This document shows, one piece after another, positions 4,163-52,502 of a DNA stretch of 64,000 bases (positions are counted from its first letter, which is position 1; each line of letters opens with the position of its first letter). The position numbers and the translations under genes are program-made. The stretch is taken from the NCBI RefSeq assembly GCF_031157355.1, contig NZ_JAVIFT010000003.1, positions 1-64,000 on the forward strand. The letters are read 5' to 3'. The stretch comes from Hyphomicrobium sp. LHD-15. GTDB lineage: Bacteria; Pseudomonadota; Alphaproteobacteria; Rhizobiales; Hyphomicrobiaceae. The notes beneath the pieces were generated by a model. It was not told the DNA's origin. It made no database searches and saw nothing but the letters and a program-made list of their open reading frames with translations.

Positions 4163-4184
4163 CGCGAGCACGCTTGAAGCTGAG

Positions 4185-6651: not shown

Positions 6652-6657
6652 GACGAA

Positions 6658-7658: not shown

Positions 7659-7670
7659 GGCTGAAAACCC

Positions 7671-32303: not shown

Positions 32304-33302
32304 TCAGGCGACGAGATGGCGGGCCTTGGCTTCGGCCATAAGCTCGGCGAGGATACCCACGGCGAGCGTCGTTTTCGTTTTGGCGCCTTGAATGGATCCG
32401 ACAGGCGCACGCAGGCGTGCAAGATCCTCGGCATCGACCCCGAGAGCGGACAGAGCGTGCAAGCGCTGCGTATGGACCGCCCGGTTGCCGAGAACGCCAA
32501 TGTAAAAGCAGTCGCGCCGCAACAGCCGTGCGAGAATATCGGGCTCCACGTCGTGCTCATGGAACACGAGGACAACCGCCGAGCTGGAATCGAGCCGGTC
32601 GATCGCATCCTCGTTCAACCGCGGCTCGCCCCCGGCTTCGAGACCGGCGCTCCGGATCGCCAAGCGTGTCGCCGCGTCCGGAGACCATACTTCGGTCTCG
32701 AGACCGACGGCCTGAGCCAAACGGGCGAGCGCCGTCAGCGCCGGGCCGCTGCCCAGAAGCAAGAGGCGCATCCGCGGCAGGAACACGCGCGAGAACACAT
32801 CCCCCTCGCGCGCGCAAAGGCGGGGCGCGTCTTTTGCCAATAGCGTGACCTGACTTGATCCACCCGAAAGCGAACTTCTGAGCGCGAAGCCTTTGCGGGC
32901 CGCCCGATAGAGCGCCATTGTGCTCATCTGCTCGGAGCACAGCGTGATATCGAAGTGAAGGTCGAGCCCGCTGCCGCACGGAAGCTTGATGTCGATGTAG
33001 CGCGAGCCTCGTCCGTAGCGCACCAGTCGATTTTGCGCAGCGCGGATCACGTCCTGCGCCTCGAGCACGATCGCCTGCTCCAGGCACCCGCCGGAGAGAT
33101 AACCGACGTGGCGGCCGTCTTCGGCTACCGCCATCTGGGCGCCGAGCGGACGCGGCGCCGCGCCATCTATTCCAACCAGCGTCACCAGAGCGGTGCGGAG
33201 GCCCTGGCGATGCCACACCCACAGATCCGGCAACACGTCCTCTTCGGACAAGAGACCTGCCGCGGAGGTATCGAGCGGCGGGCATGGAAGGAGAGCACTC
33301 AT
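32304..33302 (-). CDS. XdhC/CoxF-family molybdoenzyme maturation factor
   Basis: A 332-residue protein with the XdhC N-terminal domain (VTLVGIDGAAPRPLGAQMAVAEDGRHVGYLSGGCLEQAI) and the Rossmann-like C-terminal domain (RMRLLLLGSGPALTALARLA, FYIGVLGN). XdhC proteins bind the sulfurated molybdenum cofactor and insert it into xanthine-dehydrogenase-family enzymes. The only such enzyme in the window is the molybdenum hydroxylase at 45491-48328, about 12 kb away, which is the probable client. It lies 28 bases after the sigma-54 activator gene and ends the minus-strand regulatory operon. Confidence 0.9.
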   Translation of the reverse strand: MSALLPCPPLDTSAAGLLSEEDVLPDLWVWHRQGLRTALVTLVGIDGAAPRPLGAQMAVAEDGRHVGYLSGGCLEQAIVLEAQDVIRAAQNRLVRYGRGSRYIDIKLPCGSGLDLHFDITLCSEQMSTMALYRAARKGFALRSSLSGGSSQVTLLAKDAPRLCAREGDVFSRVFLPRMRLLLLGSGPALTALARLAQAVGLETEVWSPDAATRLAIRSAGLEAGGEPRLNEDAIDRLDSSSAVVLVFHEHDVEPDILARLLRRDCFYIGVLGNRAVHTQRLHALSALGVDAEDLARLRAPVGSIQGAKTKTTLAVGILAELMAEAKARHLVA

Positions 33303-33330: not shown

Positions 33331-35319
<1,989 letters not shown>

Positions 35320-35372: not shown

Positions 35373-36137
35373 CTACCTCGCCAGATAATCGCTTCGCTCG
35401 ACGCGCAGCAGAGACGCCTTGAGCCTCATGCTGTCGCGGAGGATGTCCTCGACACTAGTGAAAGTGAAGCGGACGTGATCGGTTGCAGCAGCCTCCGCCG
35501 CCTTTGGGTTGCCGGCCAGAATCGCATCTGCGATCGCCACATGCTGGGCCAGCAGCTTGGCCCGCACCGAATGACGCCCGTAGAGTTGCTCGCGGCTATA
35601 GAAGATGTTGGTCCGCAACAGCTCGGCCAGCCCGCGCATGATATGGAGCATCACCGCATTGTGCCCCGCCTCGTAAATGGCGAGGTGAAAATCGACGTCG
35701 GCCTGAGACTCCTCGGTCGGATCCTCGATCTCGTGCGCCTTTTTCATCCGCTCGATGCACCCGCGGATGGCCTCACGGTCGATGTCGGACGCTCGCAAAG
35801 CCGCGTAACGGGCCGCCTGCGCCTCGACACCCTGACGGAATTCGAAATAGTCGGCGGTAACCTGCGGATTGTCCGCGAGCAACGAGGCAAGCGGCTTGAG
35901 CAGCGGCGAGAGGAACTGCGCGACGTGAGTGCCCCCGCGCGTCGTAACCAGCAGACCGCGCTCCGCGAGCATATCGATGGCTTCCCGCAGCGAGGGGCGC
36001 GATACGTCGAGCTTTTCGGCAAGCTCGCGCTCCGGCGTGAGCCGCTCGCCCGGCCTGAGCACACCCTGCAGGATGAGCTTCGCGATATGATCCGCAATCG
36101 CCTCTGCCACGCGTTGCGGCTTGATGCGTTCAGTCAT
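35373..36137 (-). CDS. GntR-family (FadR/LldR subfamily) transcriptional regulator
   Basis: A 254-residue regulator. The winged helix reads LRPGERLTPERELAEKLDVSRPSLREAIDMLAERGLL (about 30-66) and the all-helical FCD effector domain fills the rest, with the metal-ligand pattern DxxxH (DVDFHLAIYEAG) and later His residues. This subfamily includes the lactate repressor LldR and the pyruvate sensor PdhR. It is divergent from the lactate permease, whose upstream region carries a GTTGGT-N11-ACCAAC palindrome resembling FadR/PdhR-type operators. ATG 36137 is preferred over TTG 36149. It heads the operon that continues into the AcoR-like and XdhC genes. Confidence 0.92.
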   Translation of the reverse strand: MTERIKPQRVAEAIADHIAKLILQGVLRPGERLTPERELAEKLDVSRPSLREAIDMLAERGLLVTTRGGTHVAQFLSPLLKPLASLLADNPQVTADYFEFRQGVEAQAARYAALRASDIDREAIRGCIERMKKAHEIEDPTEESQADVDFHLAIYEAGHNAVMLHIMRGLAELLRTNIFYSREQLYGRHSVRAKLLAQHVAIADAILAGNPKAAEAAATDHVRFTFTSVEDILRDSMRLKASLLRVERSDYLAR

Positions 36138-36246
36138 TGCCCTATCCAATCGGCTCCCTTGGAGACGCGGAGCACCCTGCGATCCAGCAGGAGTAATAGA
36201 ATATCCACATCTGTCAATTGAAACTATCTATTTCCCATCGCAATTA

Positions 36247-36269: not shown

Positions 36270-36330
36270 AAGGCGGCGGTCGGCTTCTCGAAGGGCCGAT
36301 TAGACCTCCGGATAAAGGGTGGAAAAAATC

Positions 36331-37971
36331 GTGTGGTCTCAAGTCTATGATCCCTTCGGGGACATGCTGCTGTCTGCTTGCGCGGCGGCAGTTCCGGTGG
36401 TTGTGCTGTTGGGCGCGATCGCATTTTTTGAGGTTCGGGCGCATTTCGCGGCGCTTCTCGGCCTCGCGGCAGCGCTCATCGTTGCCATCTTTGCCTTCGG
36501 CATGCCGCCTCAGATGGCCGGCCTTGCCGCCGCCTATGGCGCAGCCTTCGGCCTGCTGCCCATCGGATGGATCATCCTCAACGTCATCTTCCTCTATCAG
36601 CTGACCACAGAGAACGGCGAGTTCGAGGTCGTCCAGCGCAGCATCGGCAGGATCAGCCGCGATCGCCGTATGCAGGTGCTCTTCATCGCCTTCTCGCTCG
36701 GCGCCTTCTTCGAGGGAGCGGCGGGTTTCGGCACGCCGGTCGCCGTGACGGCCGCCATGCTCATCGGTCTGGGCTTTCCTCCGCTCGCCGCCTCCGGTCT
36801 GTCCCTGATCGCCAATACCGCGCCCGTTGCCTTCGGCGCGCTAGGCTCTCCGGTCATTGCGCTGGCAGCCGTAACCGGGCTCGATCTTCACGAACTGAGC
36901 GGCATGATCGGCCGGCAGCTTCCGCTGTTCTCGATCATCGTGCCGTTCTGGGTGATCTGGGCCTATGTCGGCTTCCGCCGCATGTTGGAGGTATGGCCGC
37001 CGATCGCAGTGGCGGGCATCTCGTTCGCGATCCCTCAATACCTCGTGTCGAACTTCCACGGTCCCTGGCTGGTCGACATCATCGCCGCCATCGTATCGAT
37101 GGCCAGCCTTGCACTGTTCCTCAAAGTCTGGAAGCCCGCGCGCGAAATGGTGGATCACGACGGCGGTTCCGCGCCAGCGAGCACCGTCGATGCCGCGCCT
37201 GCCATCCCGCGCGCGACGCTGATACGGGCGTGGACGCCATGGCTCTTCTTGAGCGTATTCGTGTTCATGTGGGGCACGCCGCAGGTCAAAGCCTACCTCG
37301 ACAGCCTCTGGGTCTATAAGCACCCCGTCGTCGGCCTCGACCAGCTCGTGCAGAAAGTGCCGCCCGTCGTCGCGACTCCCCACGCGGAAGCAGCCGTCTA
37401 CAATCTGAACCTCTTGTCCGCGACAGGCACCGGCATCCTGCTTGCCGCTCTGCTCTCAGGGCTCGTCCTGGGCCACAGCCCGTTGCGCCTCGCGCGCATC
37501 TATGCGCGTACGATCTATCTCGTCCGCTATTCTCTGATCACCATCGCCGGCATGCTCGCGATCGGGTTCGTCACCCGTTATTCCGGCACCGACGCCACGC
37601 TCGGCCTCGTCCTGGCCAACACCGGCTGGCTGTACCCGTTCTTTGGCACGCTGATCGGCTGGCTGGGCGTTGCGCTGACCGGCTCCGACACGGCCTCGAA
37701 CGTACTCTTCGGTGGCCTGCAGCGCGTCAGCGCCGAGCAGCTCGGCATCAATTCGACGCTGATGGCCGCAGCCAATAGCTCGGGCGGCGTGATGGGCAAG
37801 ATGATCGATGCGCAAAGCATCGTCGTCGCCTCCACGGCAACCAAGTGGTACGGCCACGAGGGAACCATCCTGCGCTTTGTGTTCTTCCACAGCGTCGCGC
37901 TGGCCATGCTGGTTGGACTGTTCGTGACCGCCCAAGCCTACTGGTGGCCATTCACCTTGCTCGTTCCCTAG
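36331..37971 (+). CDS. lldP: L-lactate permease
   Basis: Lactate (and glycolate) proton symporter of about 546 residues with twelve or more helices. Family features include the N-terminal WSQVYDPFGDMLLS, FFEGAAGFGTPVAVTAAMLIGLGFPPLAA, and the late GWLGVALTGSDTASNVLFGGLQ. The start is taken as GTG 36331 because GGGTGG lies eight bases upstream; GTG 36319 would add four residues. It begins a plus-strand run lldP-lutA-lutB-lutC. A GntR-type operator candidate lies upstream; no sigma-54 promoter was seen here, so it may be controlled by the divergent GntR regulator. Confidence 0.93.
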   Translation: MWSQVYDPFGDMLLSACAAAVPVVVLLGAIAFFEVRAHFAALLGLAAALIVAIFAFGMPPQMAGLAAAYGAAFGLLPIGWIILNVIFLYQLTTENGEFEVVQRSIGRISRDRRMQVLFIAFSLGAFFEGAAGFGTPVAVTAAMLIGLGFPPLAASGLSLIANTAPVAFGALGSPVIALAAVTGLDLHELSGMIGRQLPLFSIIVPFWVIWAYVGFRRMLEVWPPIAVAGISFAIPQYLVSNFHGPWLVDIIAAIVSMASLALFLKVWKPAREMVDHDGGSAPASTVDAAPAIPRATLIRAWTPWLFLSVFVFMWGTPQVKAYLDSLWVYKHPVVGLDQLVQKVPPVVATPHAEAAVYNLNLLSATGTGILLAALLSGLVLGHSPLRLARIYARTIYLVRYSLITIAGMLAIGFVTRYSGTDATLGLVLANTGWLYPFFGTLIGWLGVALTGSDTASNVLFGGLQRVSAEQLGINSTLMAAANSSGGVMGKMIDAQSIVVASTATKWYGHEGTILRFVFFHSVALAMLVGLFVTAQAYWWPFTLLVP

Positions 37972-37985
37972 CTCAAGTCCGGCAG

Positions 37986-38792
37986 ATGCCCTCGATGACA
38001 GACAATTCTGCTCCAGCGCCTGAGACGAAGAGTGGCCCGCGTGTCGCCCTCTTCGTCACCTGCCTGGTCGATCTCTTCCGCCCGAGCATCGGGTTCGCCG
38101 CGGTCAAACTGCTCGAAGATGCAGGATGCCGCGTCGAGGTTCCAAGCCAGCAGGTCTGTTGCGGGCAACCGGCTTACAACAGCGGTGATGCGGCCTCGGC
38201 GCGCCGCATTGCCAAACAGGTGATCGAGACCTTCACCGGCTTCGACTACGTCGTCGGCCCTTCCGGCTCGTGCATGGCCACGATCCGCAAGGAGTACCCG
38301 GCGATGTTCAAGGACGACGCGGCCTGGGATGCGCAGGCGCGGGCTCTGGCGGAACGCAGCTACGAGCTGATGTCGTTCCTCACGGACGTGCTCGGCGTTT
38401 CAACGGCCAAAGTCCACTTCCAGGGCCACGCAACCTATCACGACAGCTGCTCCGGCCTGCGCAGCCTCGGCATCAAGGAACAGCCGCGCCGCCTGCTCTC
38501 TGCGGTCGATGGACTGACGCTCACCGAGCAGCAGGATTCCGAAACGTGCTGCGGCTTCGGCGGCACGTTCTGCGTCAAATACCCGGAGATCTCCGTCAAA
38601 ATGGTCTCCGACAAGGTCGGCAATATCGACATGACCGGCGCCGATACGCTGCTCGGCGGCGACCTCGGTTGCCTCATGAACATTGCCGGCAGGTTGCGGC
38701 GCCTCGGCAAGACCGTCCGTGTCTACCACGCCGCCGAAGTACTGGCCGGCATGGCAGACCGCGCCGGCATTGGCGATCCGGAGACGCGCTGA
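37986..38792 (+). CDS. lutA: Lactate utilization protein A (Fe-S oxidoreductase)
   Basis: A 268-residue CCG-domain protein, the LutA/LldE subunit of the flavin-free L-lactate oxidising complex. Two Cys-rich CCG motifs are visible: QQVCCGQPAYNSG in the first half and ETCCGFGGTFCVKYPEIS in the second. These bind an iron-sulfur cluster similar to that of heterodisulfide reductase HdrB. The start is ATG 37986 or 37995, 15-24 bases after lldP; neither has a strong ribosome-binding site. Its TGA overlaps the lutB start by one base (TGATG). Confidence 0.92.
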   Translation: MPSMTDNSAPAPETKSGPRVALFVTCLVDLFRPSIGFAAVKLLEDAGCRVEVPSQQVCCGQPAYNSGDAASARRIAKQVIETFTGFDYVVGPSGSCMATIRKEYPAMFKDDAAWDAQARALAERSYELMSFLTDVLGVSTAKVHFQGHATYHDSCSGLRSLGIKEQPRRLLSAVDGLTLTEQQDSETCCGFGGTFCVKYPEISVKMVSDKVGNIDMTGADTLLGGDLGCLMNIAGRLRRLGKTVRVYHAAEVLAGMADRAGIGDPETR

Positions 38793-40213
38793 TGCAAACC
38801 ACCAACGAGGATTTCAGCGCGAGAGCCTCTAAGGCGCTCGGCGACGCGAGCCTTCAGCAGTCAGTCTCGAACCTGAAGCGCGGCTTCGTCGCAGCCCGCG
38901 CTCGCGCGGTTGCAGCGCTTCCCGAATACGAGGCCATGCGCGACGCAGGCGCGGCAATCAAGGATCACACCCTCGACAACCTCGATTTCTACCTCGAACG
39001 CTACGAACGCGAAGTGGTTCGGCTCGGCGGACACGTCCACTGGGCCGCCGACGCCGACGAGGCTTGCCGGATCGTGCGCGAGATCTGCGCACGCGCCGGT
39101 GCCAAGACCATCGTCAAAGGCAAGTCGATGGTCTCGGAGGAAATCGCCCTCAACGAAGCGCTCGAAGCGGACGGCCTCGAGGTCGTCGAGTCGGACGCAG
39201 GCGAATACATCGTGCAGCTCGCCAAAGAGGCGCCGAGCCACATCGTCATGCCGACCGTGCACAAGACGACGGAGGACATCGCCGACCTCTTCCACGAACA
39301 CCATCGCGCCTATGGCTTCACTGACCGCGTAACCGACGCGGCCGAGCTGATCGGCCAGGTGCGCACCATCCTGCGTGACAAGTATTTCGCAGCCGATGTC
39401 GGCATCACCGGCGCAAACTTCCTCGTCGCCGAGACCGGCTCGAACATCATCGTGACCAATGAGGGTAACGGCGATCTCACCTCGACGCTGGCCCGCGTTC
39501 ACATCGTAACCGCCGGCATCGAGAAGGTTGTACCGACGCTGAACGATGCCGCCGTTCTCCTGCGGCTCCTGGCGCGCAGCGCGCTCGGCATGGAGATCAC
39601 GAGCTACACGACGTTGTCGACCGGGCCGCGCCGTTCGGGCGATCTCGACGGTCCCGAGGAATATCATGTCGTGCTCGTCGACAATGGGCGCTCGAAGATG
39701 CTCGCCGGTGCGTTCCGGCCGATGCTTCGCTGCATCCGGTGCGGTGCCTGCATGAACCACTGCCCCGTCTATCTGTCAGTCGGCGGCCATGCCTACGGCT
39801 GGGTCTATCCCGGGCCGATGGGCGCGGTGCTGACGCCGATGATCGCACGCCACGAGAAGGCGAGCGAGCTGCCGCACGCCTGCACGCTCAACGGCCGCTG
39901 CCAGCAAGTCTGTCCTGTCAAAATTCCCCTCCCCGATCTCCTGCGCCGATTGCGCCATGAGCAGTGGGAAGCGGGCTTCATCAAAAGCAAGGTCCGCTGG
40001 GGCGTGGGCCTGTGGGCGTGGTTTGCAACGCATCCGGCGGTGTATCGCACGGCGACGCGCCTCGCCGCCGCGGTTCTCGGACGGCTGGGAAAATCCAACG
40101 GCCGCATGAGACGCTTGCCACTCGCGGGCGGATGGACAGCAGGACGCGACATGCCCGCGCCGCAAGGGACGACATTCCATGCGGCGTGGGCCAAGAGGAA
40201 CCAGCAGCGGTGA
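38792..40213 (+). CDS. lutB: Lactate utilization protein B (LUD domain and ferredoxin)
   Basis: A 473-residue iron-sulfur protein. The N-terminal LUD domain contains KSMVSEEIALNEALE and VGITGANFLVAETGS. Two [4Fe-4S] motifs follow: CIRCGACMNHCPVY near 310-325 and a second ending CQQVCPVKIPLPDLL. The C-terminus carries an amphipathic segment (RWGVGLWAWFATHPAVYR) that could touch the membrane. With LutA and LutC it oxidises L-lactate to pyruvate and passes electrons to the respiratory chain. It starts within the lutA stop and overlaps lutC by four bases. Confidence 0.94.
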   Translation: MQTTNEDFSARASKALGDASLQQSVSNLKRGFVAARARAVAALPEYEAMRDAGAAIKDHTLDNLDFYLERYEREVVRLGGHVHWAADADEACRIVREICARAGAKTIVKGKSMVSEEIALNEALEADGLEVVESDAGEYIVQLAKEAPSHIVMPTVHKTTEDIADLFHEHHRAYGFTDRVTDAAELIGQVRTILRDKYFAADVGITGANFLVAETGSNIIVTNEGNGDLTSTLARVHIVTAGIEKVVPTLNDAAVLLRLLARSALGMEITSYTTLSTGPRRSGDLDGPEEYHVVLVDNGRSKMLAGAFRPMLRCIRCGACMNHCPVYLSVGGHAYGWVYPGPMGAVLTPMIARHEKASELPHACTLNGRCQQVCPVKIPLPDLLRRLRHEQWEAGFIKSKVRWGVGLWAWFATHPAVYRTATRLAAAVLGRLGKSNGRMRRLPLAGGWTAGRDMPAPQGTTFHAAWAKRNQQR

Positions 40214-40860
40214 ACGGAACACGACGCGACGACATGCTGGCGCGGATCAGAGAGGCCCTCGGTGATCGGCAACGCACCCCTGAGGCCGTCGAAGAACTCG
40301 AGCAGCGGCTCACTCGCCCACCCACCGGCCCGCGTCCCCGATTGGACGCAGACCGGCTCGGACAGTTCGTCGCCAAGGCCGAAGCCAATCTGATCAAGGT
40401 CGAGCGCATTGCCTCGCTGCAAATGCTGGTGCCCGCCGTGCGAGTGCTTTTGCCTTCAACGTCCGATGCGCCCGATATCAGCGTCGCACCGGAACTCGAA
40501 CATTTGGGATGGCCGAGTACCTGGCACGTCAACTTCGGCGCCGGACGAAAGATCGAGCCGTTGAGCGTCACCATGGCTGTCGCCGGCATCGTGGAAACCG
40601 GGAGCATCATCCTGCGATCATCCCCGGCGTCTCCGACGACGCTCAACTTCCTGCCCGATGTTCACGTCGTCGTGCTGAGGACCTCGGATATAGTCGATTA
40701 TCCAGAAGATGTCTGGGCCCGCGCGCGATCCGAAAGCGAGGACTGGCCCCGTACGGTCAATATCATCTCGAGCCCCTCGCGCACGGCCGACGTCGGCGGC
40801 ATCATCGTGCGCCCCGCTCACGGCCCCAAGAGCGTTCACCTGATGCTTTGCGACGGCTGA
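40210..40860 (+). CDS. lutC: Lactate utilization protein C (LUD domain)
   Basis: A 216-residue LUD-domain protein, the LutC/LldG subunit. The characteristic VTMAVAGIVETGSIILRSS and LNFLPDVHVVVLRTSDIV are visible. The frame opens at GTG 40210, overlapping the lutB stop (GTGA), and an ATG eight codons later at 40234 is an alternative. The overlapping starts across lutA, lutB and lutC indicate tight stoichiometric coupling of one complex. Confidence 0.92.
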   Translation: MNGTRRDDMLARIREALGDRQRTPEAVEELEQRLTRPPTGPRPRLDADRLGQFVAKAEANLIKVERIASLQMLVPAVRVLLPSTSDAPDISVAPELEHLGWPSTWHVNFGAGRKIEPLSVTMAVAGIVETGSIILRSSPASPTTLNFLPDVHVVVLRTSDIVDYPEDVWARARSESEDWPRTVNIISSPSRTADVGGIIVRPAHGPKSVHLMLCDG

Positions 40861-42985: not shown

Positions 42986-43597
42986 ATGTCGAAGGATACA
43001 CGAGCTGGCCACACGGCCGGTCGGGAGAGCGGGGGCGCACCTGAAGTCGGCCGCCGCACCATCATACAAGGACTTGCCGTTTCTGGATGTCTGGCCGCGT
43101 CCGGCTTGCTGGGAAGCTCCCCGGCCGGCGCCCAGAGCACGCGCCCGCAACCCGGGCACCACTTTGTCTTCATGACCGGCGACAAGGAAGGACAGCCCGT
43201 CGCTCCCGACGATGTGAAGATCGGAGAGCCGCCCCTGCTCGCCTATCCGATGGATCCGGCCACGAAGACCGTTCTCATTTCGCGAGCCAGCCTGCTGCTG
43301 CTCATGCGGCTCAAGGAAGCCGATCTGGATCCCTCCACGAAGCCGCACTCGGCCGACGGCATCGTGGCCTATTCCGGCATCTGCACGCATGAGGGCTGCC
43401 CGATCTCGGGCCATCACGAAAATCAGCGCATGGCCGTGTGCAACTGCCACGGCTCGACATTCGATCTCGGCAACAACGGCGCCGTGGCACACGGACCTGC
43501 GGTGCGCAGGCTGGCCATGCTGCCGGTGACCATCACCGACGGAGCGTTGGTGGTGGCAGGAAAACTGGACGGTCCGATCGGGCCGCCAGCAGCGTGA
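42986..43597 (+). CDS. Tat-exported Rieske [2Fe-2S] protein
   Basis: A 203-residue electron-transfer protein. The Tat-type leader has GRRTIIQGLAVSG at 22-34 followed by a hydrophobic stretch to about 50 (AGAQ). The Rieske site is CTHEGC (Cys133, His135, Cys138) and CNCH (Cys152, Cys154, His155): Cys133/His135 and Cys152/His155 bind the cluster, and Cys138/Cys154 can form the disulfide seen in bc1-type Rieske proteins. GGGAGG lies just before the ATG. It is the first gene after a sigma-54 promoter and precedes the PQQ dehydrogenase by 64 bases. No cytochrome b or dioxygenase gene is near, so it may be the electron acceptor of the PQQ enzyme or the Mo hydroxylase. Confidence 0.88.
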   Translation: MSKDTRAGHTAGRESGGAPEVGRRTIIQGLAVSGCLAASGLLGSSPAGAQSTRPQPGHHFVFMTGDKEGQPVAPDDVKIGEPPLLAYPMDPATKTVLISRASLLLLMRLKEADLDPSTKPHSADGIVAYSGICTHEGCPISGHHENQRMAVCNCHGSTFDLGNNGAVAHGPAVRRLAMLPVTITDGALVVAGKLDGPIGPPAA

Positions 43598-43661
43598 GGC
43601 CACGCTTCAACAGGCTTCACGTCAATCGAAGAGACTAAAAAAACGCATTGGAGGAAATCTC

Positions 43662-45386
43662 GTGAAACTAAGGACATCCGTCGCAGCCTTCGCGCTCGTC
43701 GCGACGTCGGCATTGCATGCCGCCGATTACAAGCCGGTCACCGAGCAACGGTTGGCCAACCCGGAGCCCGAGAACTGGCTGCTGACGAAGGGCAACTATC
43801 AGGGCTGGAGCTACAGCCCCCTCGAACAGATCACGCCCGCGAACGCCGCCAAGCTCAAGCCTGTTTGGTCGGCCGCCACCGGCATCTCCTCGGGCCACGA
43901 AGCCCCGGCCATCGTCAACGGCGACTACATGTTCGTCGCGACACCGCGCAACCAGGTGTTGGCATTCGACTCGAAGACCGGCCGACTGCTGTGGCGCTAT
44001 CAGCGCGAGCTGCCGGAAGGCTTCGGCACGTTGCACATGACCAATCGCGGCGTCGCACTGTGGGGTGACAAGGTCTACGTCGCCAGCATCGACTGCATGC
44101 TGACCGCGCTCAATCCCAAGACCGGTGAAAAGATCTGGGAATCGCAGGTCTGCGATTGGGAGAAGGAAAGCGCTTACATCACCTCGGCACCGCTGGCCGT
44201 GAAAGGCAAGATCATCGTCGGTCCGTCCGGCGGCGAGTTCGGCGTGCGCGGCTTCATCAAGGCATTCGACGCGGAGACCGGAAAACTTGCGTGGACGCGC
44301 TACAGCGTGCCCGCTCCCGGCGACGCAGGCTCCGAGACGTGGCCGCAGGAAGGCCGCTGGAAGGACGCCTGGAAGAACGGCGGCGGCACGATGTGGATGC
44401 CGGGCAACTACGACGCGAAGAACGACGTCATCTACTGGGGCGTCGGCAACGGCGCGCCGTGGCTCGGCGATCAGCGTCCCGGCGACAACCTGTATTTGGC
44501 GTCCGTCATTTCGATCAACCCGGACAACGGCGATTTGGTCGGCCACTTCCAGTACCACTGGAACGACTCGTGGGATTGGGCCGGCATGAACGCCCCGACG
44601 CTTGTCGACTTCGACCGCGGCGGCAAGAAGGTCCCCGGCCTCATCAGCGCACAGCGTAACGGCGTGCTCTATTGGCTGGAGCGCGATGCCAAGGGTAAAA
44701 TTACTTACGATAAATCCCAGATGTACGTGAAGAACAACGTCTTCACCAGCATCGACCCCAAGACTGGCCGCCCGACCTACAACGAGGCCGCCAAGCCTGG
44801 CACCGACAAGACGGCGACCTACTGCCCGAGCTTGTGGGGCGGCAAGGACTGGCCCTTCGAATCCTATAGCCCGAAGACGGGAATGCTCTACATTCCCTTC
44901 AACGACAACCACTGCATGACGCTCACCGGCATGATCCAGCCGATCGTGCCCGGCCAATGGTCTGCAGGCGTCGACATCAAGCGTCTCGACCTCAAAGTCG
45001 ACGACAACTTCCCCTTCATCGGCGGCATTCAGGCTCGCAACGTCAGCGACGGCAAGGAAGTCTGGCGTGAAACCTACAAGGGATCGTGGAACTGGGGTTC
45101 GATCCTGACCACCGGCGGCGGCGTCCTGTTCGCTGGCGGCACCAATGACCGCATGTTCCGCGCTTACGACGAAAAAACCGGCAAGCTGCTTTGGGAGTTC
45201 CCGACGCCGTCCGGCATTATTTCGCCGCCGAGCAGCTTCTCCATCGACGGCAAGCAGTACATCGCCGTAGTCTCCGGTTGGGGCGTTGATGCTCAATGGA
45301 TCCAGGGCAAGATGCACGAGCAGGCCGGCTGGGAGAAATGGGTTCCCGAAGGCGGCTCGGTTTGGGTCTTCGCGCTCGGTGACTAA
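43662..45386 (+). CDS. PQQ-dependent alcohol dehydrogenase (methanol/ethanol family, no heme domain)
   Basis: Periplasmic quinoprotein of 574 residues with a Sec signal peptide (to about Ala20). Eight-bladed propeller docking motifs are visible, for example AFDSKTGRLLW, ALNPKTGEKIW, AFDAETGKLAW and AYDEKTGKLLW. Metal and catalytic residues are Glu192 (SGGEFGVRG), Asn263 (GVGNGAPW) and Asp305 (DSWDWAG). Residue 307 is Ala, not the second Asp that marks lanthanide (XoxF-type) enzymes, so Ca2+ is predicted. The vicinal Cys pair usually placed just before a VNRG-type motif is absent; the aligned stretch reads LHMTNRG (124-130). There is no C-terminal cytochrome c domain and no cytochrome gene beside it. 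The substrate is unknown; alcohols or 1,2-diols are likely. Confidence 0.92.
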   Translation: MKLRTSVAAFALVATSALHAADYKPVTEQRLANPEPENWLLTKGNYQGWSYSPLEQITPANAAKLKPVWSAATGISSGHEAPAIVNGDYMFVATPRNQVLAFDSKTGRLLWRYQRELPEGFGTLHMTNRGVALWGDKVYVASIDCMLTALNPKTGEKIWESQVCDWEKESAYITSAPLAVKGKIIVGPSGGEFGVRGFIKAFDAETGKLAWTRYSVPAPGDAGSETWPQEGRWKDAWKNGGGTMWMPGNYDAKNDVIYWGVGNGAPWLGDQRPGDNLYLASVISINPDNGDLVGHFQYHWNDSWDWAGMNAPTLVDFDRGGKKVPGLISAQRNGVLYWLERDAKGKITYDKSQMYVKNNVFTSIDPKTGRPTYNEAAKPGTDKTATYCPSLWGGKDWPFESYSPKTGMLYIPFNDNHCMTLTGMIQPIVPGQWSAGVDIKRLDLKVDDNFPFIGGIQARNVSDGKEVWRETYKGSWNWGSILTTGGGVLFAGGTNDRMFRAYDEKTGKLLWEFPTPSGIISPPSSFSIDGKQYIAVVSGWGVDAQWIQGKMHEQAGWEKWVPEGGSVWVFALGD

Positions 45387-45409: not shown

Positions 45410-45446
45410 CGTCGATCCGCACCAGATTTTCAGGTGCGGATCGACG
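45410..45446. repeat. Perfect 14-bp hairpin between the PQQ dehydrogenase and Mo hydroxylase genes
   Basis: CGTCGATCCGCACC (45410-45423) pairs fully with 45433-45446 around a 9-base loop. It sits 23 bases after the PQQ dehydrogenase stop. No T-run follows, so it is more likely an mRNA stability or processing element inside an operon than a terminator. Confidence 0.65.
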
Positions 45447-45490
45447 TGCTCTACCACTGACCAACGATCGGAAGAAGGACAGTGAACGTC

Positions 45491-45943
45491 ATGCTTACCC
45501 TCACAGTGAACGGCCAGGAACGCCAATTCGATGGCGATCCGAACACGCCGCTGCTTTGGTTCGTCCGCGACGAACTTGGGCTCACGGGAACGAAATTCGG
45601 ATGCGGAGCGGGCCTTTGCGGAGCCTGCACGGTCCACCTCGATGGCGTCGCCGTACGCGGCTGCCTGACGACGATAAGCGAAGCCAACGGCAAGAGCGTC
45701 ACCACGATCGAGGGCCTGAGCCCGGACGGCAATCATGTGGTGCAGAAAGCCTGGCGTCAGTTGAACGTACCGCAATGCGGCTACTGCCAGGCCGGCCAGA
45801 TCATGCAGGCCGCTTCCCTGCTGACCAAGAACCAGGCGCCGAGCGATGCCGAGATCGTCGACGAGATGGCGGGAAACATCTGTCGTTGCGGTTGCTATCA
45901 GCGCATTCACGCCGCCGTTCGCCTCGCAGCCGGAGGAGTGTAA
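45491..45943 (+). CDS. Molybdenum hydroxylase small subunit ([2Fe-2S] x2, IorA type)
   Basis: A 150-residue iron-sulfur subunit of the xanthine oxidase family. The plant-type cluster ligands are Cys38, Cys43, Cys46 ([12 protein letters not shown]) and Cys58; the second cluster is bound by CGYC near 97-100 and CRCG near 132-134. It moves electrons from the molybdenum subunit to an external acceptor. The start may be ATG 45491 or GTG 45482, three codons upstream, next to AAGGA. It ends three bases before the large subunit gene. Confidence 0.93.
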
Positions 45944-45946
45944 GCC

Positions 45947-48328
45947 ATGTATCACTTCATCGAGAAAGAAATACGATCCACGCAAGGCAACGTTACCTCA
46001 CAGGCTCTCATCGAGAACGTGAGCCGACGCAGCTTCCTCGGCGGCGTGCTGAAGACCTCCGGCGTGGTGCTTGCCCTGCAGGTTGTCCCAGGCGGCGCAG
46101 CCGGCGCCTTTGAGTCCTATCCGACGGGTGCCGCTGGCATGCCGCGCGGCGTGGTCAACGATCCGCACGTCTTCGTCGCCATCGATGCGGACGGCGTCGT
46201 CACCATCGTCGCGCACCGCTCCGAGATGGGAACCGGAGCCAAGACCAGCCTGCCCATGGTCGTTGCCGACGAGATGGAGGCTGACTGGTCTCAGGTTCGC
46301 GTCATCCAGGCTCCCGGAGACGAGCCGCGCTACGGCAACCAGGACACCGACGGCTCGCGCAGCGTTCGTCACTTCCTCCAGCCCATGCGCGAATGTGGCG
46401 CCGCGATGCGCTACATGCTGGAATCTGCAGCCGCCGCCAAGTGGGGCGTGGACCGCTCGCTCTGCAAGGCGAAATTGCATCACGTCGTATTGCTGGAGAA
46501 AGGCAAGACAGCCGGCGAGATGGTCGAGACCAAGACCCAGCTCGGCTTCGGCGAACTCGCCGCAGCGGCGATGAGCCAGCCTGTTCCCTCACGTGACAAG
46601 CTCGCATTCAAGCAGCCGAAAGACTTCCGCTACATCGGCAAGGGCACGACCCCGATCGTCGATCTCCACGGCATTACGGTCGGCACGGCCCAGTATGGAG
46701 CCGACGTACGCGTGCCCGGCATGAAGTATGCGGTCATCGCCCGTCCGCCCGTGGTCGGTGGAAAGGTCAAGAAGTATGACGCTACCGCAGCGCTGAAGGT
46801 GCCCGGTGTCGAAGCCGTCCACGAGATCGAAGGCCACGCTCCGCCCGCCAAGTTTCTGCCCCTCGGCGGTATCGCCGTCGTCGCACGATCGACGTACGCC
46901 GCCATGCAGGGCCGCGATGCGCTGGTGATCGAGTGGGAGGACGGTCCGCATGCGGGCTACAATTCCGCCGCCTTCCGCGAAGAAATGACCGCAACGGCCG
47001 CCAAGCCCGGAAAGGTCATTCGCAACCAGGGCGACCCCGACGCCGCGTTCGCTGGCGCTGCGGAGGTGTTCACCGCCGATTACCACCAAAGCCACGTCGC
47101 TCAGGCATCGATGGAGCCGCCGGTCGCGCTTGCCCGCATTTCCGACGGCAAGATCGAGGTCTGGGCCCCGGCTCAAAGCCCCTACGGCGCACGCGAGGAC
47201 ATCGCGAAGGCGTTGGATGTGCCGATCGAGACTGTCACCGTCCACGTAACGCTGCTCGGCGGCGGCTTCGGTCGCAAATCGAAATGCGACTACATGATCG
47301 AAGCCGTGCAGCTCTCGAAGAAGCTCGGTGGAACGCCGGTCATGTTGCAGTGGACACGCGACGACGACTTGCGTCACGCCTTCTACCACACGACATCCGT
47401 CGAGCGGATCGAGGCCGCCTTGGACAAAGCGGGCAAGGTTGTCGGCTGGCGCCATCGAACGGTCGCACCATCGATCCTGTCGACCTTCGCCGCCGACAGC
47501 GGCTACCAGTTCCATATCGAGTACGGCATGGGCTTCGCCGACATGCCGTTCGAGATTCCGAACATCCGCTGCGAGAACGGGCAGGCCTTTGCGCACACGC
47601 GCATCGGCTGGTTCCGTTCGGTGTCGAACATTCCGCGCGCCTTTGCCGTGCAGTCGTTCGTCGCTGAGCTCGCCCACAAACTCGGCCGCGACCCCAAGGA
47701 TCTCCTGATTGAGCTGATCGGATCGGACCGCAAGATCGATCCGAAGTCCTCAGGCATGCCCGAGGACTTCTGGAACTACGGCGAGCCCTATGCCGAGTTC
47801 CCGATCGATACGGCGCGCCTGAAGAATGTCGTCGAAGTCGCCGCCGAGAAAGCCGGTTGGGGCAAGAAGCTGCCGCCGAAGCAGGGGCTCGGCATCGCAG
47901 TGCATCGCTCGTTCGTCTCGTACGTCGCCATGGCGGTGCGGGTCGAGATCGACGCCAACGGCATCATCCGCGTGCCTGAAGTCACGGCCGCCATCGACTG
48001 CGGTTTTTACATCAATCCGGAGCGCATCCGATCGCAGATCGAAGGCGCGGCGGTGATGGGCATGTCGACGGCCCTCTACAGCGGCATCACCTTCAAGGAT
48101 GGCCAGGTGGAGCAATCGAACTTCAGCGACTTCGAAGTCGCGCGGATGTCGAACTTTCCGCAGAAGGTCAACGTGCACATCATCGAGCCGACGTCTCCGT
48201 CGCACCACGCGACAGGCGTGGGCGAGCCGGGAGTGCCGCCATTCGCGCCAGCCCTGTGCAACGCGATCTTCGCGGCCACCGGCAAGCGCCTCCGCAGCCT
48301 TCCGACCGGAGAAAAACTCGATGCGTAG
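45947..48328 (+). CDS. Molybdenum hydroxylase large subunit (isoquinoline 1-oxidoreductase beta / aldehyde oxidoreductase type)
   Basis: Molybdopterin-binding subunit of 793 residues that oxidises aldehydes or hydroxylates N-heterocycles with water. A twin-arginine-like leader (SRRSFLGGVLKTSG, about 26-40) suggests periplasmic location. Mo-site motifs are SEMGTGAKTSLPMVVADE, LLGGGFGRKS and GVGEPGVPP, in which Glu760 is the catalytic base. The IorB branch often has a partner with c-type hemes, but none is encoded here. The likely maturation factor is the XdhC protein at 32304-33302. In this setting, oxidation of the aldehyde formed by the PQQ enzyme is the simplest role. Confidence 0.9.
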   Translation: MYHFIEKEIRSTQGNVTSQALIENVSRRSFLGGVLKTSGVVLALQVVPGGAAGAFESYPTGAAGMPRGVVNDPHVFVAIDADGVVTIVAHRSEMGTGAKTSLPMVVADEMEADWSQVRVIQAPGDEPRYGNQDTDGSRSVRHFLQPMRECGAAMRYMLESAAAAKWGVDRSLCKAKLHHVVLLEKGKTAGEMVETKTQLGFGELAAAAMSQPVPSRDKLAFKQPKDFRYIGKGTTPIVDLHGITVGTAQYGADVRVPGMKYAVIARPPVVGGKVKKYDATAALKVPGVEAVHEIEGHAPPAKFLPLGGIAVVARSTYAAMQGRDALVIEWEDGPHAGYNSAAFREEMTATAAKPGKVIRNQGDPDAAFAGAAEVFTADYHQSHVAQASMEPPVALARISDGKIEVWAPAQSPYGAREDIAKALDVPIETVTVHVTLLGGGFGRKSKCDYMIEAVQLSKKLGGTPVMLQWTRDDDLRHAFYHTTSVERIEAALDKAGKVVGWRHRTVAPSILSTFAADSGYQFHIEYGMGFADMPFEIPNIRCENGQAFAHTRIGWFRSVSNIPRAFAVQSFVAELAHKLGRDPKDLLIELIGSDRKIDPKSSGMPEDFWNYGEPYAEFPIDTARLKNVVEVAAEKAGWGKKLPPKQGLGIAVHRSFVSYVAMAVRVEIDANGIIRVPEVTAAIDCGFYINPERIRSQIEGAAVMGMSTALYSGITFKDGQVEQSNFSDFEVARMSNFPQKVNVHIIEPTSPSHHATGVGEPGVPPFAPALCNAIFAATGKRLRSLPTGEKLDA

Positions 48329-48491: not shown

Positions 48492-51164
48492 ATGGACGAC
48501 AAACCCGACGACAGAGGCCTGGAAAAGCGGGAATGGGAGGAGGCGATCTCGTCGGTCATCGCGTTCGACGGCACGCGTCGCGCCGATGAGCTTCTGACCA
48601 GCGCCGTCGAAACCGCCCGCCGCTCGGGCGCCAGCCTGCCGTTCGCCGCCAACACGGCTTACGTCAACACCATCTCGGTCGATCAGGAGCCGAAGCACCC
48701 AGGCGTGCGAGAGGTCGAGCACCGCATCCGCTCGGCGATCCGCTGGAACGCGGCGGCCATCGTCTTGCGTGCCAACAAAACCTCATCCGAGCTCGGCGGC
48801 CACATCGCGAGCTTCCAGTCCGCGGCAACCCTCTACGACACCGGCTTCGAGCACTTCTGGCATGCGCCGTCTGAAACCCATGGCGGCGATCTCCTGTTCA
48901 TTCAAGGACACTCGTCTCCCGGCATTTACGCGCGCGCCTTCCTCGAAGGCCGCCTCAGCGAGGAGCAGCTTCTGAACTTCCGCCAGGAGGTGGATGGCAA
49001 GGGCATTTCCTCCTATCCCCATCCCTGGCTGATGCCAGATTTCTGGCAGTTTCCGACCGTCTCGATGGGGCTTGGCCCGATCATGGCCATCTATCAGGCA
49101 CGCTTCCTGAAATATCTGCACGGCCGCAGCCTCGCGGACACCGACAACCGCCACGTCTGGACGTTCTGCGGCGACGGCGAGATGGACGAGCCGGAGAGCC
49201 TTGGCGCGATCGCACTCGCCGGACGCGAGAAGCTCGACAACCTGATCTTCGTCGTCAACTGCAACCTGCAACGGCTCGACGGCCCGGTGCGCGGCAACGG
49301 CAAGATCATCCAGGAGCTGGAGGGTGTGTTTCGCGGCGCCGGATGGAATGTCATCAAGGTGATCTGGGGCTCGACCTGGGATGAGCTGTTCGCACGCGAC
49401 ACATCCGGCAAGCTGCGCGAGCTGATGGAAGAGTGCGTCGACGGCGAATATCAGGATTTCAAATCCAAGGATGGCGCCTACATCCGCAAGAACTTCTTCG
49501 GCCGCTACCCGGAAACCGCGGCCATGGTCGCCGATTGGACCGACGATCAGATCTGGAAGCTGACCCGCGGCGGCCACGATCCGTCCAAGGTATTCGCCGC
49601 TTACAAAGCCGCCGTCGAGCATCGTGGCCAGCCGACCGTGATCCTCGCCAAGACCGTCAAGGGCTACGGCATGGGTAACGCCGGCGAAGCGCAGATGATC
49701 ATCCATCAGCAGAAGAAGATGGAGATCGACGCCCTGCGTCAGTTCCGCGATCGCTTCCAGGTTCCGGTCGAAGATGCAGATCTCACAAATCTGCCGCTGA
49801 TCCGCTTCCCGGACGGCTCGGAGGAAATGAATTATCTCCGCACGCGGCGCGAAGCCCTGGGTGGCTATCTGCCGGCCCGGCGGCAGCGCTCCGAAAGCTT
49901 GCAGGCGCCTCCATTGTCGGCCTTCGACGGCCAGCTCAAAGGCAGCGCCGGGCGCGAGATCTCGACCACCATGGCCTTCGTGCGCCTTCTCTTGACGCTG
50001 CTGCGCGACAAGACGCTCGGGCCGCGCATCGTGCCGATCGTGCCCGACGAGAGCCGCACCTTCGGCATGGAAGGCATGTTCCGCCAGTTCGGCATTTTCA
50101 GCCAGGTCGGGCAGCTTTATCGGCCGTCGGATGCCGGCGAGTTGAGCTTCTACAAGGAGGATCGCCAAGGCCAGATGCTGCAGGAAGGCATCAACGAGGC
50201 CGGCGCCATGTCATCGTGGATCGCGGCCGCGACGAGCTATTCGACCTCGAACGTGCCGATGATCCCGTTCTACATTTTCTATTCCATGTTCGGCTTCCAG
50301 CGCATCGGCGATCTCGCCTGGGCGGCGGGCGACAGCCGCGCGCGCGGCTTCCTGATCGGCGGCACGTCGGGCCGTACGACCCTCAACGGTGAGGGGCTGC
50401 AGCACGAGGACGGCCACAGCCACCTGATGTCGGCGACGATCCCGAACTGCGTCTCTTACGACCCGACCTACGCCTACGAGCTGGCCGTGATCATCCAGAA
50501 CGGCCTCACCCACATGATGGAGCGGCAGGAGGATGTCTTCTACTACATCACTGCGCTCAACGAGAACTATGAGCACCCCGCCATGCCGGAAGGCGTGGAG
50601 GACGGCATCATCAAGGGCATGTACCGCCTCAAGGCGCGAGCGACCGACACTAAGAAGAAGAGTGGCCACACCGTGCAGCTCATGGGATCTGGCGCAATCC
50701 TGCGCGAGGTCATCGCGGGCGCCGAGCTTCTGGAAAAGGACTTCGGCATCTCCGCCGACATCTGGAGCGTGACCAGCTTCACCGAGATTGCGCGCGACGC
50801 ACAGGCCGTGGAGCGCTGGAACCTTCTCAATCCGCTGGAGCAGCCGCGCGTGCCCTACGTAACCCAGCTTCTCAGCGAGCACGGATCTGGGCCTGTGATC
50901 GCCGCGACCGACTACATGAAGGCGTTCGCGGAACAGATCCGCGCCTTCGTACCGGGCACCTACCGCGTGCTCGGTACCGACGGCTTCGGCCGCTCCGACT
51001 ATCGGCGCAAGCTGCGCTTCCACTTCGAGGTCGACCGGCACTTCGTTGCCGTCTCCGCCCTCAAGGCGCTGGCCGACGAGAACAAGATCCCCTCGACACG
51101 GGTCGCCGAGGCGCTTGCCAAGTACGGCATCGATCCCACCAAAGCCGACCCCGTAAAAATCTAG
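48492..51164 (+). CDS. aceE: Pyruvate dehydrogenase E1, homodimeric type
   Basis: Thiamine-diphosphate-dependent E1 of 890 residues, which decarboxylates pyruvate and acetylates the lipoyl groups of AceF. The ThDP motif runs from GDGEMDEPESLGA to the NLQRLDGPVRGNG stretch. The motifs VPDESRTFGMEGMF and LIGGTSGRTTLNGEGLQHEDGH are typical of single-chain AceE. Most alphaproteobacteria use a two-chain E1 (PdhA/PdhB), so this enzyme is unusual for the lineage and may be a second, substrate-induced complex. aceF and lpd follow in the same direction. Confidence 0.95.
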   Translation: MDDKPDDRGLEKREWEEAISSVIAFDGTRRADELLTSAVETARRSGASLPFAANTAYVNTISVDQEPKHPGVREVEHRIRSAIRWNAAAIVLRANKTSSELGGHIASFQSAATLYDTGFEHFWHAPSETHGGDLLFIQGHSSPGIYARAFLEGRLSEEQLLNFRQEVDGKGISSYPHPWLMPDFWQFPTVSMGLGPIMAIYQARFLKYLHGRSLADTDNRHVWTFCGDGEMDEPESLGAIALAGREKLDNLIFVVNCNLQRLDGPVRGNGKIIQELEGVFRGAGWNVIKVIWGSTWDELFARDTSGKLRELMEECVDGEYQDFKSKDGAYIRKNFFGRYPETAAMVADWTDDQIWKLTRGGHDPSKVFAAYKAAVEHRGQPTVILAKTVKGYGMGNAGEAQMIIHQQKKMEIDALRQFRDRFQVPVEDADLTNLPLIRFPDGSEEMNYLRTRREALGGYLPARRQRSESLQAPPLSAFDGQLKGSAGREISTTMAFVRLLLTLLRDKTLGPRIVPIVPDESRTFGMEGMFRQFGIFSQVGQLYRPSDAGELSFYKEDRQGQMLQEGINEAGAMSSWIAAATSYSTSNVPMIPFYIFYSMFGFQRIGDLAWAAGDSRARGFLIGGTSGRTTLNGEGLQHEDGHSHLMSATIPNCVSYDPTYAYELAVIIQNGLTHMMERQEDVFYYITALNENYEHPAMPEGVEDGIIKGMYRLKARATDTKKKSGHTVQLMGSGAILREVIAGAELLEKDFGISADIWSVTSFTEIARDAQAVERWNLLNPLEQPRVPYVTQLLSEHGSGPVIAATDYMKAFAEQIRAFVPGTYRVLGTDGFGRSDYRRKLRFHFEVDRHFVAVSALKALADENKIPSTRVAEALAKYGIDPTKADPVKI

Positions 51165-51224: not shown

Positions 51225-52502
51225 ATGTCCATGATCGACGTGAAGGTTCCGGCCATCGGCGATTTCGCCAATGTGCCCGTGATCGAGGTTTTGGTGAAAC
51301 CGGGCGACAGCGTGAAGGCGGAGGATCCGTTGATCGCGCTCGAATCCGACAAGGCAACAATGGAGGTGCCTGCGCCATCTGCGGGCAAGGTCGCCGAGAT
51401 CATCATCAAGGTCGGCGACAAGGTGAGTGAAGGCAGCCTGATCCTCAAGCTCGTGCCGGAAGGCGGCGCCACGAGCGCGCCGGGAGCGAGCAGCGCGCAA
51501 GAGCAGCGCAAAGAGCCTTCTCCGACGCCGCAACACGCACACGAGGTCGGCCCTTCCGCCCCATCGCCGCACGCAGACGCCAGTACGCTCCCCGTTGCCA
51601 TCGACTTCGGCGGTGTTCTCGCCAGCCCCTCCATCCGCCGTTTGGCGCGCGAACTCGATATCGATATCGCCAAGATTAAAGGCAGCGGTGCGAAGGGGCG
51701 CATCACCAAGGAGGACGTGAAAGACGCACTCGGCGGCGGATCTGCTCCGGGTGCGGGATCGGGCGCCGGCATCCCCGCCATCCCGCAGCAGGACTTTTCG
51801 AAGTTCGGACCCACGACCATGCAGCCCCTGTCTCGTCTGAAGCGGCTCTCCGGGCCGCACCTCCATCGCGCATGGCTTAACGTTCCGCACGTGACCCACA
51901 CTGATGAGGCCGACATCACCGATCTCGAAGCCTATCGCAAAGAGCTCGACAACGAGGCGAAGCTCAAGGGTTACCGGGTCACGCTGCTGTCGTTCCTGCT
52001 GATGGCATGCGTCGGCGCGCTGAGACAGCATCCGGAGTTCAACGCCTCGCTGACGCCCGAAGGCGACGCGCTGATCCTCAAGAACTATTACAACATCGGC
52101 GTTGCCGTCGACACGCCGGACGGCCTCGTGGTGCCGGTCATCAAGGAGGTCGATCGCAAACGCATCCTTGAACTCAGCCAGGAGCTATCGACCGTGTCGC
52201 AGCGCATGCGCGACGGCAAGATCGCGCCTGCCGATATCCAGGGCGGCACCTTCTCCATCTCGAGCCTCGGCGGCATCGGCGGCACCAACTTTACGCCCAT
52301 CGTCAATGCGCCAGAAGTCGCGATCCTCGGCGTCGTGCGCGCAACCACGCGCCCGGTGTGGACCGGCGACACGTTCGTTCCGCGCCTGATGTTGCCGCTC
52401 TGCCTCTCCTACGATCATCGCGTCATCGACGGCGCCCTCGCCGCCCGCTTCACCCGCCGCCTCGCCGAAATCCTCTGCGACGTTCGCCAGCTGGTACTCT
52501 AA
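51225..52502 (+). CDS. aceF: Pyruvate dehydrogenase E2, dihydrolipoamide acetyltransferase
   Basis: A 425-residue E2. One lipoyl domain (about 3-77) carries the lipoyl Lys in ALESDKATMEVPAP. A flexible Ala/Pro/Ser linker follows, then an E1/E3-binding domain (ASPSIRRLARELDIDIAKIKGSGAKGRITKEDV, about 128-162) and the catalytic core ending with SYDHRVIDGALAARF, which contains the active His and Asp. E. coli AceF has three lipoyl domains; this one has a single domain. It is 60 bases after aceE. Confidence 0.95.
   Translation: MSMIDVKVPAIGDFANVPVIEVLVKPGDSVKAEDPLIALESDKATMEVPAPSAGKVAEIIIKVGDKVSEGSLILKLVPEGGATSAPGASSAQEQRKEPSPTPQHAHEVGPSAPSPHADASTLPVAIDFGGVLASPSIRRLARELDIDIAKIKGSGAKGRITKEDVKDALGGGSAPGAGSGAGIPAIPQQDFSKFGPTTMQPLSRLKRLSGPHLHRAWLNVPHVTHTDEADITDLEAYRKELDNEAKLKGYRVTLLSFLLMACVGALRQHPEFNASLTPEGDALILKNYYNIGVAVDTPDGLVVPVIKEVDRKRILELSQELSTVSQRMRDGKIAPADIQGGTFSISSLGGIGGTNFTPIVNAPEVAILGVVRATTRPVWTGDTFVPRLMLPLCLSYDHRVIDGALAARFTRRLAEILCDVRQLVL

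Follow-up and report, generated by a model that had tools for sequence, protein, structure and literature searches.

Analysis of a 64,000-nucleotide stretch of the Hyphomicrobium sp. LHD-15 genome (contig NZ_JAVIFT010000003.1, positions 1 to 64,000; hereafter the window) revealed a gene for a Rieske [2Fe-2S] protein located 64 bp upstream of, and on the same strand as, a gene for a pyrroloquinoline quinone (PQQ)-dependent alcohol dehydrogenase (Table 1). Both open reading frames (ORFs), whose adjacency had been pointed out in an initial annotation of the window, were confirmed at their positions and in their common orientation. They are followed by genes for the two subunits of a molybdenum (Mo) hydroxylase. 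It is generally accepted that type I quinoprotein alcohol dehydrogenases have c-type cytochromes as their partners. As the initial annotation had claimed, none of the four proteins of this cluster (the Rieske protein, the PQQ enzyme and the two Mo hydroxylase subunits) contains a CXXCH motif; nor was this motif found in any called gene of at least 80 aa between 26 kb and the end of the window.

A genome search for Rieske-PQQ gene pairs, which the initial annotation had proposed as a check, was carried out in both directions. In the forward direction, an alignment of the dehydrogenase clade was used to search named genome contigs, and the best 80 of 520 confirmed loci were inspected (loci are denoted by L numbers). 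A same-strand Rieske gene was present beside the dehydrogenase gene in 69 of these 80 loci (a count that retains four same-record duplicates, L076, L080, L093 and L107, all of them paired). The gap between the matched domains ranged from −7 to 254 bp, with a median of 51 bp. The Rieske gene precedes the PQQ gene in 65 of the 69 pairs and follows it in four; the latter order was also observed in L057, L144 and L147. Two of the 11 unpaired loci (L077 and L113) start less than 200 bp from a contig end. In the genome of L077, another contig ends with an aldehyde dehydrogenase gene, a Rieske gene and the first part of a PQQ gene, and no full-length Rieske gene was found in the genome of L113.

In the reverse direction, all 17 other Rieske matches in a sample of 249 genomes of the order (E≤4.1e-19), as well as all nine new matches in 385 genomes of the class (E≤1e-15), were accompanied by a same-strand PQQ enzyme gene, thus 26 of 26, located within 332 bp in 25 cases and at approximately 1 kb in L168. 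The next band of hits in the order (L020–L022) lies beside molybdopterin enzymes (identified by Pfam for L020 and by eye for L021 and L022). Among plasmids, a PQQ enzyme gene was adjacent in six (L143–L147 and L149) of the eight Rieske-hit records examined out of 31; the other two, a Meiothermus record and a Microbacterium record with a bc1-type Rieske gene, have none. As a control, 13 other PQQ-enzyme regions of the host genome (L151–L163) were analyzed, and none of them contains a Rieske gene. Since 69 of 80 loci are paired, compared to 0 of these 13 regions, the adjacency of the two genes exceeds chance. The searches yielded 105 loci besides the window; the four duplicates and two plasmid loci in which no PQQ gene was matched (L148 and L150) were excluded from the counts based on 99 loci or 88 pairs given below.

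According to the record labels, several of which belong to contigs of metagenome-assembled genomes (MAGs) and may be incorrect, the paired enzymes originate from six phyla: Pseudomonadota, Candidatus Rokuibacteriota, Acidobacteriota (L119, L133), Actinomycetota (L138), Deltaproteobacteria/Myxococcota (L114) and Deinococcota, the last represented by a plasmid of Deinococcus aetherius. One pair (L135) lies on a contig whose title assigns it to a MAG of Klebsiella pneumoniae; this MAG is probably mislabelled. Culturable bacteria that carry the pair include Hyphomicrobium sp. NDB2Meth4, Azoarcus indigens and Zoogloea oleivorans. In a quick maximum-likelihood tree, from which enzymes scoring below 300 bits were excluded, 98 dehydrogenases (86 with and 12 without an adjacent Rieske gene) form a single group (SH-aLRT 100), apart from twelve paralogs encoded by the host. 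The 12 unpaired rows comprise nine loci discussed below, the two contig-edge cases and the second of two tandem enzymes of L047. The Deinococcus enzyme branches beside this group (support 94), and the paired enzyme of L052 is placed on a long branch outside it. The distribution of the Rieske gene is patchy: it was detected in 16 of the 248 other genomes of the order sample (E≤4.1e-19) and, at the same cut-off, was missing from all nine other genomes that the sample contained for the window's family. Five acidobacterial members of the clade (L120, L121, L128, L131 and L141) have neither a Rieske gene nor a CXXCH gene alongside.

A called ORF with a CXXCH motif is located within 3 kb of eight of the 88 pairs (seven of these loci are shorter than 9 kb, so that some flanks were incomplete). 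When the same rule was applied to the 13 other PQQ-enzyme regions of the host, such an ORF was found in seven, and in six of these it represents a real cytochrome c, encoded within approximately 2.2 kb or fused (the cytochrome of L154 scores slightly below the Pfam cut-off). The seventh region (L162) contains a 109-aa ORF truncated at the end of the contig, which is not cytochrome-like. In five of the eight pair loci (L057, L086, L088, L124 and L144) the motif occurs in a protein of approximately 1100 aa with two CXXCH motifs, encoded about 500 bp behind the pair; the one that was scanned (L057, positions 1997–5356) is a fusion of MauG-like, FG-GAP and ASPIC/UnbV domains.

The initial annotation had described the Rieske protein as Tat-exported and of the bc1 type. 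A twin-arginine signal (R23 R24) is indeed present, followed by a cleavable-looking AGA-Q sequence, which we take to be the cleavage site. Judging from the motif, residues C133, H135, C152 and H155 are presumably the cluster ligands and C138 and C154 probably form a disulfide. The twin arginine, the cluster Cys and His residues and the two Cys residues at the disulfide positions are invariant in all 64 aligned members; we assume that these two non-ligand cysteines correspond to the disulfide pair of bc1 Rieske proteins. Since the signals, read by eye, look cleavable, the protein would be soluble after export.

The second part of that description held for fold and sequence, but not for membership of a bc1 complex. 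The closest solved protein is the Thermus bc1 Rieske protein (1nyk), with 41% identity across the soluble domain. The predicted structure (predicted local distance difference test score, pLDDT, 87.5) also matched 1nyk best (Z 26.1, root mean square deviation 2.0, 154 residues), followed by actinobacterial bc1 Rieske proteins and then by AioB. Ahead of residue 58 the model is free of helices, but confidence in this segment is low (pLDDT approximately 53–62), and it was therefore not used to judge solubility. The host genome encodes two Rieske proteins scoring above the Pfam cut-off. The other one is its bc1 Rieske protein, which has a UCR_Fe-S_N domain and a CTHLGC motif and whose gene adjoins a cytochrome b gene. 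The window protein gave no UCR_Fe-S_N match and has no cytochrome b among its annotated neighbours. It scored 33.5 bits against the bc1 Rieske subunit model TIGR01416 (cut-off 97.4) and 45.6 bits against the model of the arsenite oxidase small subunit, TIGR02694 (cut-off 95.65), its neighbour being a PQQ enzyme.

The tip of bc1 Rieske proteins carries a Leu that docks to cytochrome b, and a Tyr in these proteins raises the potential. Motifs were readable in 87 of the 88 Rieske proteins of the pairs and were compared with those of 14 other sequences. At the tip position (CTHxGC) Leu is present in none of the 87 pair-type motifs. The CTHLGC form was found in nine of the 14 comparison sequences, including the bc1 Rieske protein of the host; of the remaining five, three belong to the band of hits that neighbour molybdopterin enzymes and two represent another type. 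Moreover, 80 of the 87 pair-type proteins have Phe at the position where eight of the nine CTHLGC sequences carry Tyr. Compared to the Thermus bc1 Rieske protein, the window protein has (i) no adjacent cytochrome b gene, (ii) a cleavable-looking signal and (iii) a replaced tip Leu, and (iv) most pair-type proteins have Phe in place of Tyr. By the tests applied, the window protein has a bc1-like fold but is not a bc1 subunit.

The dehydrogenase resembles the type I PQQ alcohol and methanol dehydrogenases (PedH, 6zcv; ExaA; MxaF; XoxF) in fold, TIGR03075 score, catalytic positions and signal-like N-terminus. The fold was taken from a predicted structure (pLDDT 78.5, based on 13 sequences) that was used for this purpose only. 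The Glu, Asn, Asp and Arg positions, which we assume to be catalytic, are present in the window enzyme, and all 98 clade members retain Glu, Asn, the second Asp and Arg. A vicinal Cys-Cys disulfide is found near PQQ in cytochrome-linked type I quinoproteins and probably matters for electron transfer to cytochrome c. The clade differs from PedH, ExaA, MxaF and XoxF in lacking this Cys-Cys (0/98, compared to 17 of 22 rows outside the clade), in the absence of a CXXCH ORF from the 3 kb around 80 of the 88 pairs, and in having a Rieske gene alongside. The position that presumably separates lanthanide (Asp) from calcium enzymes is occupied by Asp in 65 and by Ala in 33 of the 98 members, the window enzyme having Ala. 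In L047 (Methyloligella; positions 5960–9574) one Rieske gene is followed by two tandem PQQ enzyme genes, one product with Ala and the other with Asp at this position. The closest named relatives of the window enzyme are from Hyphomicrobium (85–89% identity).

The host genome (4.29 Mb, listed completeness 100%) contains three pqqE genes above the cut-off, which suggests that PQQ can be synthesized. Eleven of its PQQ-enzyme genes, that of the window included, score above the TIGR03075 cut-off, and approximately three more score below it. Classification of the window enzyme as an "empty" quinoprotein was considered because it matches TIGR04528 (acido-empty-quinoprotein group A) and rejected, given a score of 326.1 bits against a cut-off of 650, the retained catalytic positions and the three pqqE genes. 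With this model, ten members of the clade that derive from Acidobacteria, Acidimicrobiia or Entotheonella scored 329.6–393.9 bits, also below 650.

The remaining features identified around the pair are listed in Table 1.

Table 1. Genes and other features identified around the Rieske-PQQ gene pair in the window.
Feature	Position	Strand	Remarks
AldA-type aldehyde dehydrogenase	30764–32224	+	NF007497, 754.6 bits (cut-off 500)
XdhC-type maturation factor	32304–33302	−	Pfam above cut-off; NCBIfam models below cut-off
Sigma-54 dependent activator	33331–35319	−	–
GntR/FCD regulator	35373–36149	−	closest models LldR and PdhR, below both cut-offs
Lactate permease LctP	36319–37971	+	TIGR00795 above cut-off
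LutA-like Cys-rich (CCG) protein	37845–38792	+	named from domain and position; true start later (ORF overlaps permease)
LutB	38270–40213	+	TIGR00273 above cut-off, ORF residues 191–629; gene start at ~38.8 kb
LutC-like LUD domain	39964–40860	+	match in C-terminal third of ORF; named from domain and position
Rieske [2Fe-2S] protein	42986–43597	+	203 aa; PF00355, 43 bits (cut-off 20.3)
PQQ alcohol dehydrogenase	43662–45386	+	574 aa, GTG start; TIGR03075, 501.0 bits (cut-off 480.05)
Strong hairpin, 17-nt arms	45410–45446	+	between PQQ stop codon and Mo hydroxylase start
Mo hydroxylase small subunit, two [2Fe-2S] domains	45482–45943	+	start at 45482 (GTG) or 45491 (ATG); optional neighbour
Mo hydroxylase large subunit, Tat-like N-terminus (VSRRSFLGG)	45947–48328	+	optional neighbour
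Pyruvate dehydrogenase E1, homodimeric	48492–51164	+	TIGR00759 above cut-off
2-Oxoacid dehydrogenase E2	51225–52502	+	best model TIGR01348, 541.7 bits, slightly below cut-off (552.1)
Dihydrolipoyl dehydrogenase, E3	52509–53942	+	TIGR01350 above cut-off

The initial annotation assumed a common promoter for the two genes. A scan for sigma-70 promoters identified no site in the 64-bp gap between the Rieske and PQQ genes, and none upstream of the Rieske gene. A −24/−12 sigma-54 pattern, which may have been too strict, had no match upstream of the window gene and 94 other Rieske genes (0.15 expected in shuffled sequences). The hairpin behind the PQQ gene (RNA fold z-score −4.0) may mark a transcript boundary. 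Inverted repeats composed of other letters were recognized by eye at the equivalent position between the PQQ and Mo hydroxylase genes in L064 and L092.

Several of the neighbouring genes recur in the 99 loci. AldA was identified in 32 of them, 31 times at 64–76% identity and once at 38%. The sigma-54 activator occurs in 27 loci, an outer-membrane-like protein without a Pfam match in 23, the small subunit of the Mo hydroxylase in 19 and LutB in 12. Of these five, only the activator was found in the 13 control regions, once, although these counts are not length-matched (control regions of 10–13 kb, test loci of 3–21 kb). There is no overlap between the 31 AldA loci and the 19 Mo hydroxylase loci; the chance of this would be 3e-4 for independent loci, which these are not. 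A small protein (approximately 155 aa, no Pfam match, acidic C-terminus) is encoded near or directly behind the PQQ gene in 10 of the 99 loci (e.g. L054, positions 12159–12632).

The substrate range of AldA includes lactaldehyde and glycolaldehyde. Since the pair is located among genes for AldA and Mo hydroxylase, LctP, LutABC and pyruvate dehydrogenase, the pair of the window most likely serves the oxidation of 1,2-propanediol or another short diol of this kind, a guess made from the neighbours. The resulting aldehyde would be converted to lactate by AldA or by the Mo hydroxylase, and the lactate would be taken up by LctP, oxidized to pyruvate by LutABC and channelled to acetyl-CoA by pyruvate dehydrogenase.

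The pairing of quinoprotein and Rieske protein is strongly supported by gene neighbourhood and sequence features. We consider it probable that the two genes form a dedicated respiratory module, in which a soluble Rieske protein replaces cytochrome cL/c550 as the first electron acceptor of this clade of PQQ enzymes. In such a module the periplasmic PQQ dehydrogenase would oxidize the alcohol and its electrons would pass singly to the soluble, Tat-exported Rieske protein, whose own acceptor would most likely be a general c-type cytochrome leading to the oxidase. The quinoprotein-to-Rieske path had been suggested in the initial annotation; it gains support from the pairing counts in both search directions, the occurrence of both gene orders and the spread over six phyla, from which we infer the transfer itself.

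In arsenite oxidase (AioAB) the Rieske subunit accepts the electrons of a periplasmic dehydrogenase and delivers them to cytochrome c. The system described here resembles AioAB with cytochrome c552 (8ed4) in having a small exported Rieske protein near a periplasmic dehydrogenase, and differs from it in that the dehydrogenase is a quinoprotein, AioA being a Mo enzyme, and in the sub-threshold score obtained with the AioB model. In Entotheonella (L204), a pair-type Rieske gene without an adjacent PQQ gene is followed by a gene for a cytochrome c fused to an SBP_bac_3 (periplasmic binding) domain. Methanol dehydrogenases are accompanied by helper proteins of both these kinds, cytochromes c and binding-domain proteins. 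Based on the Entotheonella neighbour and the arsenite oxidase-cytochrome c552 structure, transfer from the Rieske protein to a cytochrome c is our best guess for the onward step.

A number of observations weigh against the proposed role of the Rieske protein as acceptor. Nine loci situated away from contig edges (L116, L120, L121, L122, L128, L129, L131, L140 and L141), of which seven are labelled as acidobacterial, have no paired Rieske gene, although L122 contains a weak upstream Rieske fragment (28.6 bits); the Rieske gene of another locus, L115, reads as two pieces. The possibility that an unlinked gene serves these nine dehydrogenases was not borne out, as a full-length Rieske protein was found only in the Entotheonella genome (G634), the other genomes, MAGs of unknown completeness, having partial matches or none. 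Because eight of the nine showed no full-length pair-type Rieske protein, the dehydrogenase can apparently occur in its absence. In addition, (i) an opposite-strand ORF separates the two genes of L168, (ii) the Rieske gene of the Meiothermus plasmid (37% identity) has no PQQ neighbour, and (iii) the two-CXXCH protein is encoded directly behind the pair in five of the seven loci with the PQQ-Rieske order. L052 and L149, which are paired but fall outside the main group, retain the Cys-Cys. This weakens the view that loss of the Cys-Cys caused the partnership with the Rieske protein; the loss is a mark of the clade and no strict consequence of the partner. The Rieske and dehydrogenase distances are correlated (r 0.72 for 88 pairs; largest value in 999 shuffles 0.08), but such a correlation is equally expected from joint inheritance. 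Finally, the window carries both the AldA gene, 12 kb away, and the Mo hydroxylase, which are thus not strict alternatives.

The unpaired loci and their genomes would fit an arrangement in which an unlinked cytochrome c is the direct acceptor for PQQ and the Rieske protein helps the dehydrogenase in a side role, for example by providing a branch to another oxidase or by acting in assembly or redox sensing; the cytochrome c neighbours of other PQQ enzymes of the host point the same way. We regard this arrangement as unlikely, since among the window genes compared it is the one-electron carrier that is retained beside the dehydrogenase in most loci, its cluster ligands are invariant, and a CXXCH ORF lies near so few of the pairs. 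The bc1-like fold and sequence, with the Thermus protein as the best solved match, might also indicate a spare bc1 Rieske subunit co-transcribed by accident. That is extremely improbable: the host has its own bc1 Rieske protein with the expected domain, motif and cytochrome b neighbour, the window protein lacks both the domain and the tip Leu and scores far below the TIGR01416 cut-off, and a stray subunit would not remain beside the PQQ gene in six phyla.

The initial annotation had also considered that the Rieske protein might serve the Mo hydroxylase, in the manner of AioB and AioA. The Mo hydroxylase genes are located directly downstream in the window, and AioB is among the closest relatives after the bc1-type Rieske proteins. 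The distribution of these genes nevertheless makes such a role very improbable. The small subunit is encoded in fewer than a fifth of the loci (see above). Among 24 relatives of the large subunit from 199 genomes of the order, eight are located next to the pair, and the other 16 lack both a Rieske and a PQQ gene in flanks of approximately 1.5 kb; in six of these 16 the flanks were widened to 9–14 kb, and still neither gene was found. Two genomes of the same family have the Mo hydroxylase behind a lactate permease, and a Hyphomicrobium MAG (L078) contains the lactate genes, the Rieske and PQQ genes and the pyruvate dehydrogenase genes without a Mo hydroxylase.

The initial annotation knew of no description of a quinoprotein-to-Rieske electron path, and no account of such a gene pair turned up in searches of an open-access library (subscription papers lie outside this scope). 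It is absent from the matching passages of PMC11102522, PMC5023235, PMC10715153, PMC12314914, PMC4013037, PMC11697101, PMC9162365, PMC10654088 and PMC9580885. The nearest idea occurs in PMC11697101, where it is loosely suggested for Bathyarchaeia that the reductants of intracellular Rieske proteins might be carriers able to draw electrons from quinones or from PQQ-domain proteins. The new element suggested by our results is the type of electron partner used by a quinoprotein alcohol dehydrogenase.

It appears reasonably likely that, in a class of respiratory alcohol dehydrogenases found in at least six phyla, the dedicated acceptor is a soluble Rieske protein and not a cytochrome c, which would constitute a previously unknown electron path, and that in Hyphomicrobium and several other proteobacteria this class of enzymes opens a pathway leading from 1,2-propanediol to acetyl-CoA. 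If this is true, the Rieske protein would be a second kind of acceptor for type I quinoproteins, joining two textbook redox families, and would explain how a clade of PQQ enzymes can function although it lacks both the Cys-Cys and an adjacent cytochrome gene. Both partners are encoded as exported proteins, which offers a ready assay. The pair also provides a hypothesis for the oxidation of glycols such as 1,2-propanediol in methylotrophs and degraders.

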